From contig CM037589.1 in assembly GCA_021018995.1 (NCBI GenBank), positions 60,462,101-60,526,100 on the forward strand: DNA of 64,000 bases, in the 5' to 3' direction. This document shows positions 17,323 to 48,046 of this stretch, one piece after another. The first letter of the stretch is position 1; every line of letters begins with the position of its first letter. The notes beneath the pieces were generated by a model. The model had not been told where the DNA came from and ran no database searches. It saw only the letters and a list, made by a program, of their open reading frames with translations. The DNA comes from Chloranthus sessilifolius. Taxonomy: Eukaryota; Streptophyta; Magnoliopsida; Chloranthales; Chloranthaceae. The translations under genes were made by a program, and so were the position numbers.

Positions 17323-18560
17323 GTACCTTGATTAAGGGTTTCTCTCTAATCGTTTTCTTTATCAGTTCTGGCGAGTTGCACAGTGGACTGAAGTTCAATG
17401 GAAATCTTCTAAAATTAAAGCGATGGAACCATCTTGAAATATCATGAAACCTTCTTGAAATATCATGAAACCCATGAAAACGCTACCTTTCCTGCTACTA
17501 GTTTTATTATTTGGACTAAGTCCAAAAAGTGCCAATTGCCCGAGTTAGTCTGTACATGACATACGAAGCGGTATGAAGTGGCTGCTCCCCGTGTTCGAAC
17601 TCACACCTTGCGCTTGCCATCCCAACCCATTTACCATCGTTCCAATCAATGGGCCCTATTTTGGCTCAGCCGAGCAAGCCAATTCACATGTTACTTAGAA
17701 GATTTGCCTCAGGAAGTGGGAGACTTGAGATTAAAAGCCCACCCTTGGCCACCCTAGGGATTTTAATCTTCAGCTGACCCAACATATGCCAACTCAAGAG
17801 GTGCATGTGTCCCTAAGATTAGTCGAGTGGTCTAAAAGGCTGGGACGCCCAAGTTATCCAAAAAATAAATAGATAAATAAAAATTGAAAACTGTTTAATA
17901 ATGTGTATCACAAAACCCTCGTACCAAAGAAAATAACTGAATCAAAATTGAAATGGAAATCTCTTTGCTAACAATCATTTTGAGAAAATATTGATTTCAC
18001 ACTGAACATATCTCAAAACAAGAGACCAAAGATACCTTGTTGTGGTACACCATCACTTGCCTCGAAAGAATCTTCGGTTGCAAAAGAATGGTATGCTTTT
18101 GTAAAATTGCCCCCACCAAAGTCTCATTAATTGAAATGTACATGCCAATTGTTTAAAATATCAGTTGCTACTGATTTATACGGCCAGTACACTTACGGTA
18201 GTCGCCAGCCTGGGGCCAGCCAAAACAATCCTCATCAAAAATGTTCGTTTGTACGCCCGAACCAACTATGTGCCCGTGCCACTTAGAACATCTAGGCCGT
18301 CTGATTTTAAGGAGACGATGTAAAGAACTTTGGAACAAGAAACAAAATGTTTTGCCTCATCCAAGGTAGATCTTTACATAGTGGCCTTCAAATTAGATGG
18401 CTTAAACGATATTTTATGGGGCACATGTTCCAAAAAAAATAGTCTTTCTTTTTAATTTATATGCAATGAGGCAAATCTCATGTGCAAGTAGCCACTCCCA
18501 TAATCATTAAGGTACCTCTATTCACACCTCGAGAATTATTGAAAGCACCTAATAAACTAA
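17323..18560. other. No gene recognised
   Basis: AT-rich intergenic DNA. A small tandem duplication near 17430-17475 repeats TTCTTGAAATATCATGAAAC. Otherwise I see no structure. Confidence 0.5.
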
Positions 18561-22785: not shown

Positions 22786-23264
22786 GGGAGCCATTACTTC
22801 ATTACTTGTATACGTGTTATAAGTGATTGATCCGAATTATTCAATTACTCGCACACTCTTTGTAAGTGATTGCACCAGATTTAAAAGAAAACCTTACAAG
22901 TTTAGCAACCTTTATTATGTGAAAATATCATATCTAAGCCGTTTGATTTTAAGGGTTTATTTTATTTATCTTTTTTTGATGAATTTGAATGTTATATTAA
23001 TTGCAAAAGATTAAAATAAAATATAATTTTTATTATTTAAATAAATAGAGTCAAAGGTTATTATATAATTCAACAATTGACTATAATAGATCATATGACA
23101 AATATCGTGTTTTGCTCTAATTTTTTATACCAGAGATCTATTGCTCATGAACTTCAAATCAGACGAACCAAATTGTATTTTTACATATCATGTCTCTAAA
23201 ATATCAAATTTTTCTTTAAATTCGATGTAATCACTTGAAAAATGTGTGCAATTAATGGCTCTCT
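22786..23264. mobile_element. Non-autonomous Mutator-like element sharing TIRs with the Pack-MULE
   Basis: The left end GGGAGCCATTACTTCATTAC continues with an AAGTGATTG word. The right end, read outward, gives GAGAGCCATTAATTGCACAC then TTTTTCAAGTGATTACA. These are the same terminal words as at 34613 and 35888. The flanking 9-mers AAAACATAA (22777) and AAATCAAAA (23265) agree at 7 of 9. About 480 bp, AT-rich inside, no captured gene recognised. An extra AAGTGATTGCACC word at 22863 suggests a nested or duplicated TIR. Confidence 0.55.
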
Positions 23265-32687: not shown

Positions 32688-34258
32688 ATATAGTAATATA
32701 ATATAATACTATTATATAATATGTTGTACTATATATGATTATAATATAATATAATTTTATATGTGTGGTGAGAGCCCAATCGCCTGAGACCCTTTTATAT
32801 AATATATATATTAAAAATAAAAACTCTTCAGTTCACTTTAAATCCAATATAATAAGGTGTAATCATCGCACATGCTAGCAAATTGAAGAAATAGATGGAT
32901 TTAGCAGTGGTTTGATGGATCAAGCATAAGGATCGATCCATCGAAATTAAAATGCTAGAATTAGTTATTAAGAGGTTATGCAGTTTGAATTATTAAATCC
33001 GATTGCCCAGAATCAATGGAGCACAAACGCCGATCGATCCAGCAAAAAAAGAAACAAATGAAACCAAGATGTCGTATAACGCAGATACTATTAATACAAT
33101 TACTATTGTTGGTAAGAAGGGTTTTATAAAATATAATAATAGCAAGTGGTTGAGTGAGATGATGTGCACAAAAATATAATAGTGGCTATATAAGAAAAAG
33201 TGTTTAATATTTTAGTACTTAAAGAAATAGTAAAGGATGTAATGATGAGCTTTTGAGGGAGATGGGGATAAACATGAATATATTAATGATTATATATAAG
33301 GAAGGTATATAATATTTTATTTATTAAAAGATTTGTAAGAAGTGTAATAATGAGCACTTGAGTGCTTTGTCCAATGTAAAGTAATTATATATTATATAGT
33401 ATAATATACGTGGGTACAATTCCATAGCAATTAATATAATATACTATATTTTAACTCTAGCAAATTTTTCATGCCACCATTACCTATAATAAAATATGAC
33501 ATAAATCATTCAAGATTTCCAAACCGAGGAGCATGGCTCGATGGATCGGACAGAGTAGTCGATCGATCGACTATCAAAATTTCATAACAAAATAGGGTTT
33601 CGAAATAAACCCAAAATACAATAGAAAAAAAAAATAATATAATAATAAAATAGAAATTAACCATATTTTCAATCCTAAAATAATATTATATATAAAATAA
33701 ATCTATGGTTCGTTTTAGTCTGTCGATACGTGGTTGAATCGTATCCTATGCGACGGAATCTGAGAAGAATGAGATGGATAGATGAGTACCCACCTCTTGA
33801 AGTGTGATAGCAAATCAACGACGATTAGGACGAAGAGATCAGCATTCATACGATGGCCCGTCCACGATATCGCCTTCTTCCACCATAATCTTGATGGAGG
33901 AGATAACCCACGGTATTCTTTATGGAGGAAAATACCATGGATTTATAGAAGAGATTAGAGGGTTTTAAAAAGGGGGTGGGTGGAGGAGTTGTGACAGCTA
34001 GGGTTTTTAAGAAAAGAAAAGATTAGGGAGCGGAGACGGCTAGGGTTTTTAAGAAGAAAAAAAGAGTATAAGAGATATTAAAAGATGAAGAGAATAGAGA
34101 AGAAATTAGGGTACAGCTAGGTTTTCTTAAAAGAATAAAATGAGAAAGAGATTTTAAATAGGTTTTCTAAAGCAAGGTTGGTTCCGATGTGAAGCGCTAA
34201 CACTAAACAAAGTACAAAACATCATCTAATACAAGTAAAAAAAATCTGGGTTGTTACA
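31821..34258 (-). repeat. AT-rich block; possible long LTR ending at 34258
   Basis: Very AT-rich with many TAATATAATATTAT words and repeated CGATCGATGGATCGA-like words (31985-32050, 32480, 32905, 33545). The minus strand from 34258 reads TGTAACAACCCAGATTTTTT, which resembles the TGTAACACCCCG-type start of some long plant gypsy LTRs. 33700-34200 has a GC-richer patch with TTAGGGTTTTT words. The other end and any partner LTR are not visible. No gene seen. Confidence 0.3.
32646..32682. repeat. (TA)n microsatellite
   Basis: About 18 TA units. Confidence 0.95.
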
Positions 34259-34612
34259 TAAAATACTCTATTTTTTTTTTATAAATATGTGTTGTTATGT
34301 AAAAAATATAAAACGAATAAGATTAGAAATAGAAGAGAGGCTGCACGAGAGGGTATATTGTGAAAACTTTAATGTGATCTCATTAATCTTTTGGTCTATT
34401 TTTAAACATAAAATGAAGATAAGCATAATCCCTAGGAATCCTATTCTTAACAAACTTATCTACTAATCTTAAACTTTGGTTACACGTAACTCTCTAAACA
34501 ACCTTATAGATTCTCTATTAGGTTCTTTATTCTTTCCCTTACTTGATTTGTTATTTATATTTTTCGTTTGTTTCTTTTCTATTGTTGGTGCTTTGTTCTT
34601 TTTATTTGTTTA

Positions 34613-35888
34613 GGGAGTCATTACTTGCACACGCTTTTCAAGTGATTGCACAGAATTAGTAAAAAAGTTGGTATATTTTTATTTTTGTTAATGACTACAT
34701 TACCCTACTGATTGGACCTTAGGTATAAAGGGTAAATGTTTCAAAATGTCACTATTCTCTCTCCTGGCCAAGAGATAGTAACACAAGAGAGAGAGAGAGA
34801 GAGATGGCCTCAATAGATATCAAATATTGTTACTTCGTTGGAGGATTGGCTTGGGCCACTTTTGATAGATCACTTGAGAAAACTTTTAATTCTTTCAGTG
34901 AAGTTGTCGAATCCAAAATCATAGGCGAGCGAGAGATGGGTAGATTCAGGGATTTTAGATTCGTGACTCTCAACAACAAACAGCGGATGAGGGATTGATA
35001 GAACCTTGATGAGAGAAGCATCATTGTCAATAAGGCGCAGTCTAGAGGTGGAGGCTTCTGCGATTATGGCGAAGGTGGTGGTAGTGGCTATGTTGGTGGT
35101 GTGGTGGTGAGTGACGCATTGTATCTTGAGGTTGGTGACGACTGACTAGGCTATGCTCCAATGAATTTTCGAAGATCAAATTGGCTCCGAGAAAGGGTAT
35201 TCTTCCTTTATTGGCCCGAGTCTCCAAAAGTTTTATTGCAAATCGAGATTGGTTTTATATATCGGCACATCTCAACTCGAGATGGGCTCTAATGGTGTTG
35301 CAAAAAGAGAGATATAAAGGTTTTTTAAAGTGAGAAAGGAAGAGAGATTTTAGTATGCCATTTGAATATGTGAAAAACAGAGTTGTCCTTTGGGTATAGT
35401 TTACGGGAAAACCCATTTATGGCGTGAGTCCTAAATTCCTTTAAAGACGTGTTTTCTGAGAGTTGGCCATTACCAAAATATTTTGAAATGTGATAGGTTG
35501 TGTTTCATGGGATTGAAGATGAAATTTTTGGGAAGATGATGAAAAGTTTGATCTTACTTTGAAGAGGAGAAAGAAAAGAAAGAATCAGAGGGAAGAGTCC
35601 TTGACGTTGAGAGGTTTTGAAGTTTGAATTTCTTGATCATATATGAGAACTCATAAATCAAATATTTTTGGGTGGTTACTGGCACATTTCTGGTGGGTAG
35701 TGAACACAATTTTTTAGTGAGAGAATTTTTGTAGAGAGGGAACGGTGGAGAGAGAAAAAAAGGGAGCTAATCTAATTAAGGTGCAATTTTTTTAAAATTT
35801 TAGGTGCAATCACATAAAACGTGTGTAATGACAAATTTTGATTAATTCGGTGCAATCACTTAAAATGCATGTGCAAGTAACGGCTCCC
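34613..35888 (+). mobile_element. Pack-MULE-like element carrying an RNA-binding-protein gene copy
   Basis: The terminal inverted repeats start GGGAGTCATTACTTGCACAC at 34613 and, read inward from 35888, GGGAGCCGTTACTTGCACAT. They continue with AAGTGATTGCAC on both sides, about 40 of the first 46 bases alike. The element is flanked by a perfect 9-bp direct repeat ATTTGTTTA (34604-34612 and 35889-35897). A 9-bp target duplication and long TIRs starting with G are known marks of Mutator-like elements. No transposase is inside. The cargo at 34804-35145 is a host gene copy, which makes this a Pack-MULE. The source of the remaining 35150-35800 cargo is unknown. Confidence 0.85.
34804..35145 (+). 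pseudogene. Captured glycine-rich RNA-binding protein (GRP7/GR-RBP type) copy, decayed
   Basis: From the ATG the frame reads an RRM start with the RNP2-like YFVGGLAW (usual CFVGGLAW), KIIGEREMGRFRDFRFVTL over RNP1 (usual GFGFVTF) and MRD. Two adjacent in-frame stops at 34996-35001 follow, in place of about six residues, and then the same frame resumes with NLDERSIIVNKAQSRGGG and a glycine-rich tail to a stop at 35143. Plant GR-RBPs bind RNA in nucleus and cytoplasm, for example in cold and clock responses. The RNP1 glycines are replaced, so function is unlikely. There is no intron within the RRM, although GRP7-type genes are known to carry one there, so a processed (cDNA-derived) copy may have been captured. 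A (GA)n tract (34786-34803) stands at the 5'UTR position. Confidence 0.85.
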
Positions 35889-36190
35889 ATTTGTTTATTC
35901 TAATAGATTGTTTCATCTTTATGAATTCTATGGAGAGTAAGGAGGTCTAAGCTCCCAGCTGAAGCGCAATGCTCTTGGGAGAGTGTTTGGTAATCGCCTA
36001 GGGAGCGGGCGGATGCAATGGATATTATTTAGTTAAGGCTTCTGATTTCTTTTCTTTTTCTTATTTCTTTTGTTTCGATGCATTTATTTAATTTGGTTTC
36101 TTGATTTTGAACCTGAGAGGGTGACATGATTATACTTAGGTCTTCTCTACTGTTCTTTAAATCGCATTAAGTTGATGTTCATGTCCTCTA
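35889..36190. other. No gene recognised
   Basis: Unique-looking intergenic sequence between the Pack-MULE and the copia element. Confidence 0.5.
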
Positions 36191-47333: not shown

Positions 47334-48046
47334 CTACAAAATATTAGGTATATGAGATGCCACTCTCAGCTCCAAATCCTTCATCTTTGAGCAGAGCTCT
47401 ATTTTCTGTTCCTTATAGCTTTTCACCAAAAAATCCTTTCCTTCAATGACTTCCTTTAGCTCCCCAACTTCCCTCTTTAGCATTTCAACCCTCTCTACAT
47501 CTCCTCCTCTCCCCTCCCCCACATCAACTCCCTCCGACTCAAATTTTCTTTCCCCGTTACAGTACCCGTTTCTTCCCACTCCAGTGGACCCCACCATGGC
47601 TCCAACGCAGTGATCGGCAATCGCCTTTCTCAGCCATTGGATCTCCCGTTCCAAATCAAACAAGTCTCCGTTTGCGGAATCAAGCTGATCCTGCAAATGA
47701 GTTGAGTGGGCTAGCTGAGAGCTCAGTGAATCCCGAAGGTCAGCGATCTGATCCTGCATCTCGAGGATCATATCGTCCCTTCTCTTCAACTGCTGCCTCA
47801 ATTTGTGTATCACTTCCCTTTTGCTAAAAATGTCGGAGCCGGATTCTGACACGGAGAGAGAGTCGGAGCTGTTTGAGTGGTGGAAAGGTTTTTGGGGGAG
47901 GCTAAGGCGCTCAGGTGAAGTTGCCCATATCGAGTTGTTGGTGGATCCCGGTGCTGGAATTTTCACTAAAGGGAGGATTAGTTCCGGTTCTTTGGACATT
48001 GAGCTGATGGATGGCCGCTTAATTTCACCCATGCCTTCCATAACCC
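47334..48046 (-). other. Exon 3 of the coiled-coil gene
   Basis: Begins after TTCTTGAAACAG and codes residues 107-343 and the stop. A downstream ATG at 48041 could be mistaken for the gene start. Confidence 0.88.

Follow-up and report, generated by a model that had tools for sequence, protein, structure and literature searches.

How a transposon came to carry an intron-free copy of a gene that itself has an intron is the question raised by an element in the window, the 64,000-nucleotide stretch of Chloranthus sessilifolius DNA that was analysed as a whole. Pack-MULE-type transposons are known for taking up ordinary gene DNA, which makes such a cargo unusual. The Pack-MULEs of rice were reportedly described by Jiang et al. 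in 2004. The element considered here (34613–35888) is a non-autonomous hybrid Mutator-like element (MULE), a Pack-MULE whose dead cargo most likely derives from a spliced copy of a GRP7-type gene (GRP, glycine-rich RNA-binding protein).

Structure and spread of the element

The element is bounded by a 9-bp target site duplication (TSD), ATTTGTTTA, whose left (34604–34612) and right (35889–35897) copies are sequence features without strand and are identical at all nine positions. A perfect 9-bp duplication at 34604 and 35889 had been named in a preliminary description of this DNA and was recovered on both sides. The outward bases differ between the two sides, so the TSD is not a piece of a longer local repeat. 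Directly inside lie the 5′ terminal inverted repeat (TIR; 34613–34665, plus strand) and the 3′ TIR (35836–35888, minus strand), which pair over 53 nt at 85% complementarity. These values agree with the long TIRs and the 9- to 11-bp TSDs of TIR-type MULEs; the available text of PMC3310237 gives a filter of TIRs of at least 50 bp. Together with related insertions elsewhere, they bear out the earlier reading of a MULE with long TIRs. A TIR-like repeat inside the 3′ end (35789–35826, minus strand) is 71% complementary and weaker than the terminal pair. On the plus strand, the element is composed of a 5′ arm that ends in a (GA)n run (arm B; 34613–34803), an intron-free GRP fragment, now a pseudogene, that begins with the start codon and extends into the glycine-rich tail (34804–35122), and a MULE body with its 3′ arm (35123–35888). 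Arm B is also found on copies lacking the RNA recognition motif (RRM), such as L053, and the body and 3′ arm are common to elements without the RRM. The longest open reading frame (ORF) among those listed for 34500–36000 is 66 aa. A host gene fragment is aboard and transposase is absent (ORFs of at most 66 aa, with Pfam applied to the cargo frame only), which is the make-up of a Pack-MULE. Rfam at gathering thresholds gave no matches in the window.

Other elements with the same TIR, for which the preliminary description had suggested a search, were found in the genome (2.17 Gb in 32 contigs). A 39-bp TIR pattern allowing up to three mismatches gave 4,511 matches (2,265 + 2,246), compared with none for its reversed control. 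A script scan identified a TIR pair with a perfect 9-bp duplication at 10 of 38 fetched loci (L001, L004, L005, L008, L014, L015, L018, L028, L060, and L061), and the sequence of the duplication was different at each. The cargo fragment has spread to at least seven places; of the seven known, six have TIRs. These six TIR-bearing RRM copies occupy different sites, as would result from transposition as a unit after capture. Perfect TSDs were seen in three of the six, differing from one another, with that of L005 being A-rich; the TSD of L006 has two mismatches, and no TSD was recognisable at L002 (seven mismatches) or L003 (five mismatches). A search for the empty site with the left flank (34200–34612) gave matches outside the window that reach base 323 of 413 at most (40 of 226 candidates scored), and the best of these stop ~80 bp short of the TSD. 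Left of the element, positions 34297–34522 hold a repeat of ~220 bp that is 69–81% alike among the other places listed.

Other features of the window were noted alongside the element. A smaller stretch (22786–23263) lies between two TIRs of the same family (four and two mismatches in the first 20 bases), and its flanks have no 9-bp duplication. A lone TIR of the family, with two mismatches, has its right end at 18499. An open frame at 48–644 encodes Tf2-1-like SH3 and chromo domains and is probably the tail of a retrotransposon integrase. On the minus strand, a 235-aa open frame (47334–48041) with coiled-coil-like Pfam matches below curated cut-offs is possibly a host gene.

The cargo and its missing intron

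The cargo frame matched PF00076 (RRM) in Pfam with E = 7.5e-6. The best solved chain against it was 2mpu 'RBP1' (E = 1.4e-20), followed by 4c7q 'RNA-binding glycine-rich protein' (E = 1.5e-19), both of which we take to be plant proteins. The RRM plus glycine-rich frame recognised earlier is therefore real, and the translation contains YFVGGLAW and KAQSRGGG. The cargo begins at the ATG and ends within the glycine tail; the frame from 34804 passes through the RRM and the start of the glycine-rich tail and is then stopped by TGA TAG at 34996–35001 (plus strand), a feature absent from the preliminary description. These stops adjoin a shared deletion, in which 18 host bases are missing from all seven copies alike (21 in L007). 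Six of the seven copies have both stops after the deletion, L003 has TTA TAG, and stop codons occur in every copy. Identity between the cargo copies and the host gene is 69–82%. A majority sequence built from the copies shows 37 differences from the host gene in 234 sites (10, 11, and 16 at the three codon positions, 78 sites each), and the copies differ from this majority sequence at 71 of 1,490 sites (26, 16, and 29); this substitution pattern fits a pseudogene and gives no date. A coding function was ruled out by the stops and the shared deletion, and, judged by its sequence, the cargo is a passenger without coding function. With regard to a possible silencing effect on the host gene, all runs shared by the window copy and the spliced host sequence are shorter than 17 bases; the longest shared by other copies are 27 (L006), 23 (L004), and 19 (L007) bases.

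A genome search with the cargo protein (56 of 56 candidates scored) returned RRM matches at the seven same-family places, at weak RRM relatives, and in a single intact gene, which has two exons and lies near 210.6 kb on C1. In this closest intact gene, GAATCTAAG is followed by an 82-bp GT-AG intron and then by ATCATAAGC; the intron sits after codon 38, inside the RRM. The search for a parental gene proposed in the preliminary description thus yielded a two-exon gene whose exon structure differs from that of the copies by the 82-bp intron, in agreement with its statements that GRP7-type genes normally have an intron inside the RRM and that the copy is free of it. The exon–exon junction of the window copy, AAA|ATC, is at 34915–34920 (plus strand), the site of the host intron. 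All five copies that can be read there (L001, L002, L004, L006, and L007) are joined exactly at the splice sites (AAA|AT), as processed pseudogenes are, and none of these five spanning copies retains intron bases at the join. L006 has lost one base directly after the join, and L003 and L005 were left out of the count due to deletions over the junction. The join at the splice sites suggests that the sequence once passed through RNA.

When the host protein was used as the query (150 of 229 candidates scored), more GRP-type loci came to light, and four of them were fetched. The loci at C8:4.24 Mb and C4:156.16 Mb share the intron position of the host gene, to the codon, and have both donor and acceptor. 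Those at C1:97.77 Mb and C1:8.38 Mb showed exon 2 alone, preceded by an acceptor; in the latter, L070 (C1:8377261–8377482), the exon is interrupted by a stop, and the retained acceptor indicates that a DNA-level duplicate of such a gene exists too. Downstream of the host GRP gene, L052 (C1:209739) contains a TIR-like 20-mer with three mismatches; no longer match to the fetched elements was found there.

Two intron-free copies without TIRs were considered as sources of the cargo. L007 contains the RRM and body and lacks TIRs; a piece of arm B, also without TIR, is located 2.9 kb upstream (element bases 117–201 counted from 34604, 87.5%). From L007:2513 on, where the MULE homology ends, the sequence is a high-copy repeat (39 of 40 listed matches at other places; 6,053 first-look candidates). 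The arm-B remnant and the adjoining repeat rule out L007 as a host donor locus, and it appears to be an element disrupted by subsequent insertions. The other copy came from the five stop-bearing weak matches of the host-protein search, of which four were fetched and C7:44937334 was left out. This copy, L075 (C14:785718–786030), runs uninterrupted across the exon junction apart from small indels, has several stops, and is 73% identical to host CDS bases 1–313. Its sequence TTCATCCCGATGGCC, compared with TTCGACCCGATGGCC in the host, extends the match just upstream of the ATG, into the last bases of the host 5′ UTR. In the 2.7 kb around L075, the GRP block is all that matches the element; TIRs (up to five mismatches allowed) and A or T runs of at least 10 bases are absent. 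L075 lacks the shared 18-bp deletion and is 61–72% identical to the cargo copies; it was rejected as the cargo donor, having neither the deletion nor a closer relation to the cargo than the host gene has. On these comparisons, L075 either arose independently of the cargo or is an early sister to it. A free-standing, intron-free copy of this kind shows that processed copies of the GRP gene form in this genome, and contradicts the idea that free-standing processed copies are absent from it. After the RRM, L007 and L075 agree in GGGAAACAC, at which the host gene reads differently, a hint of a common source for the two. The remaining fetched loci, L076, L077, and L078, are weaker RRM relatives with 36–46% protein identity.

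Two MULE lineages in one element

Elements without the RRM were compared with the cargo-bearing copies. L014, L015, L018, and L020 have the same body and 3′ arm and a different 5′ arm. In L008, L012, and L013, TTTGATTATGAC runs into the body from TTATGAC, and in L017, TTTAATTATGAC does so; none of these four has the RRM. L006 and L007 run from GGTGGTTATGAC into the same body, also from TTATGAC. L004 has an altered form of this cargo–body join, and in the window copy, L002, L003, and L005, a further stretch has been lost before CTTGAGG. A search with the 5′ arm carried by the RRM copies (34613–34785; 40 of 177 candidates scored) gave at least 41 matches in the genome; among those listed, 7 are the cargo places and 34 lie elsewhere. 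Of the latter, 22 pass base 100 of 173, and the others span the TIR and no more than 94 bases. L053 has arm B with its (GA)n run, a different interior, and no RRM. The two ends of the element thus belong to different, related elements, as in hybrid Pack-type transposons, and on this comparison of copies the element combines two MULE lineages, with the GRP fragment between them. A donor locus with two neighbouring, partly deleted MULEs was not among the RRM loci examined, and that locus may have decayed. The body (35123–35888) was also considered as a 3′ UTR of the GRP gene and rejected: it runs into TIRs in RRM-less elements, and the 8 kb surrounding the host gene contain nothing that matches it strongly.

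A tree of the body (20 rows, midpoint root, 6 of 17 inner branches open) placed the six TIR-bearing RRM copies in one group (98/95). These six form a clade (99/98) with L007 and with L009, L010, L011, L022, and L023, and L008, L013, and six other RRM-less elements fall outside it. The RRM label needs two changes on this tree, and a single change sufficed in 3% of 200 bootstrap trees; one gain, plus one loss in the L009 type, would explain the two changes. The five loci of that type are fragments that retain the glycine tail along with some of the body, and they are situated inside another repeated sequence that is 88–94% alike between copies over its main stretches. The captured piece has thus also entered a second kind of repeat.

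Routes of capture

The cargo probably originated as a chromosomal processed copy that was trapped between two related MULE parts and then amplified. Spliced RNA of the GRP gene, or of a close lost paralogue, would have been reverse-transcribed into a chromosome, and two related MULEs, one without its right part and one without its 5′ arm, would have come to flank the processed copy. The outer ends could then have worked as a single element, and transposase made elsewhere would have moved the hybrid. The exchanged 5′ arm left of the cargo fits the two-neighbour scheme in the available text of PMC13317346, which is given there for CACTA. The finding of L075 somewhat raised our confidence in the capture of a chromosomal processed copy. 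The preliminary description had offered a processed template or intron loss as alternatives; the processed template is favoured, and a later loss is less so. The 37 differences from the host gene in 234 sites, together with GGGAAACAC in L007 and L075, suggest that a lost paralogue may have been the source. Neither a donor copy with the cargo's deletion nor a pair of flanking source MULEs was found. By eye, the poly(A) and the separate TSD that would be expected of a processed pseudogene were not seen at the cargo ends, and both joins lead into MULE sequence. Points against this explanation are also the extent of the cargo, from the ATG into the glycine tail, and the need for two changes of the RRM label on the midpoint-rooted body tree.

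A different template is invoked if the gene was captured at the DNA level together with its intron and the ancestral element lost that intron later by an exact deletion. This is unlikely, even though the intron is merely 82 bp, deletions are numerous in the copies, and the AG that ends both exon 1 and the intron could have guided such a deletion. With breakpoints placed up to 20 bp from the splice sites, 3 of the 1,681 possible pairs yield the observed join, and none of the five copies keeps intron bases. L070 demonstrates that a DNA-level fragment with an acceptor exists elsewhere; L075 reduced the standing of a later deletion slightly. Direct capture of spliced RNA or cDNA, with a break or gap inside a MULE repaired from GRP cDNA and no chromosomal retrocopy, we consider quite unlikely. 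It agrees with the failure to find a chromosomal donor that has the shared deletion, with the seven loci of the cargo lineage all being MULE-borne or broken MULEs, with the absence of poly(A) and a retrocopy TSD at the joins, and with a possible short overlap at the right join, where TTATG occurs in RRM-less copies and in the host glycine repeats. By itself, however, repair from cDNA leaves the exchanged 5′ arm unexplained, and no such event appears in the titles and abstract openings of the literature searched. Its probability was lowered further by L075, which shows that chromosomal processed copies form. If true, it would mean that gene uptake by MULEs can be RNA-templated and not solely from chromosomal DNA.

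The least likely of the readings weighed is that a lost, intronless paralogue of the GRP gene was captured as plain genomic DNA. The 37 differences in 234 sites between the copies and the host would allow for such a gene, as would GGGAAACAC, which is common to L007 and L075, unlike the host, and could come from a shared lost source; L075 improved its prospects a little. Against it, the intron is retained in both additional GRP-type genes whose two exons were seen, two exon-2 loci retain the acceptor, and the codon-position counts reveal no phase of coding constraint; an earlier RNA-mediated loss of the intron would still be required.

Relation to known gene-capturing transposons

The Pack-MULEs of rice and other plants, as presented in the available text of PMC3310237 and PMC2528002, are likewise non-autonomous MULEs with long TIRs, a 9-bp TSD, a host gene fragment, and several copies. 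The present cargo differs from theirs in lacking an intron that the host gene has; a grapevine Mutator family treated in the same available text carries both intronic and exonic sequence of its gene. The Arabidopsis hybrid Pack-CACTA is similar in having host DNA between two related outer ends, according to the portion of PMC13317346 at hand, which relays the model of Catoni et al. that two adjacent related elements with deleted inner ends become one. That portion presents this as one capture route for Pack-CACTA and leaves room for another. The element described here differs in being a MULE, in being an old product and not an event, and in that its neighbouring source elements were not found. 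The human ARF6-MER20 Pack-TIR also has a retrogene copy within a TIR transposon (PMC8277862). It is from an animal, ARF6 is itself called a retrogene, and recurrent retroposition is named as possible in the available text. Processed pseudogenes such as L075 have likewise lost the intron at the splice sites; the cargo differs from them in that no poly(A) or retrocopy TSD was seen and in that it lies between MULE parts, which L075 does not. The animal survey in PMC8277862, as far as its available text goes, discarded intronless cases as a control for retroduplicates, and such filters may hide examples of this kind.

In the titles and abstract openings searched, no plant Pack-MULE was reported to carry an intron-free version of a gene that has introns. 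The consequence for the plant is modest, as the cargo is dead and no effect on the host gene is in evidence. The available text of PMC3310237 describes the mechanism of gene capture by MULEs as yet to be understood. An intronless cargo limits what the template can have been, and the exchanged arm limits how the event can have taken place.
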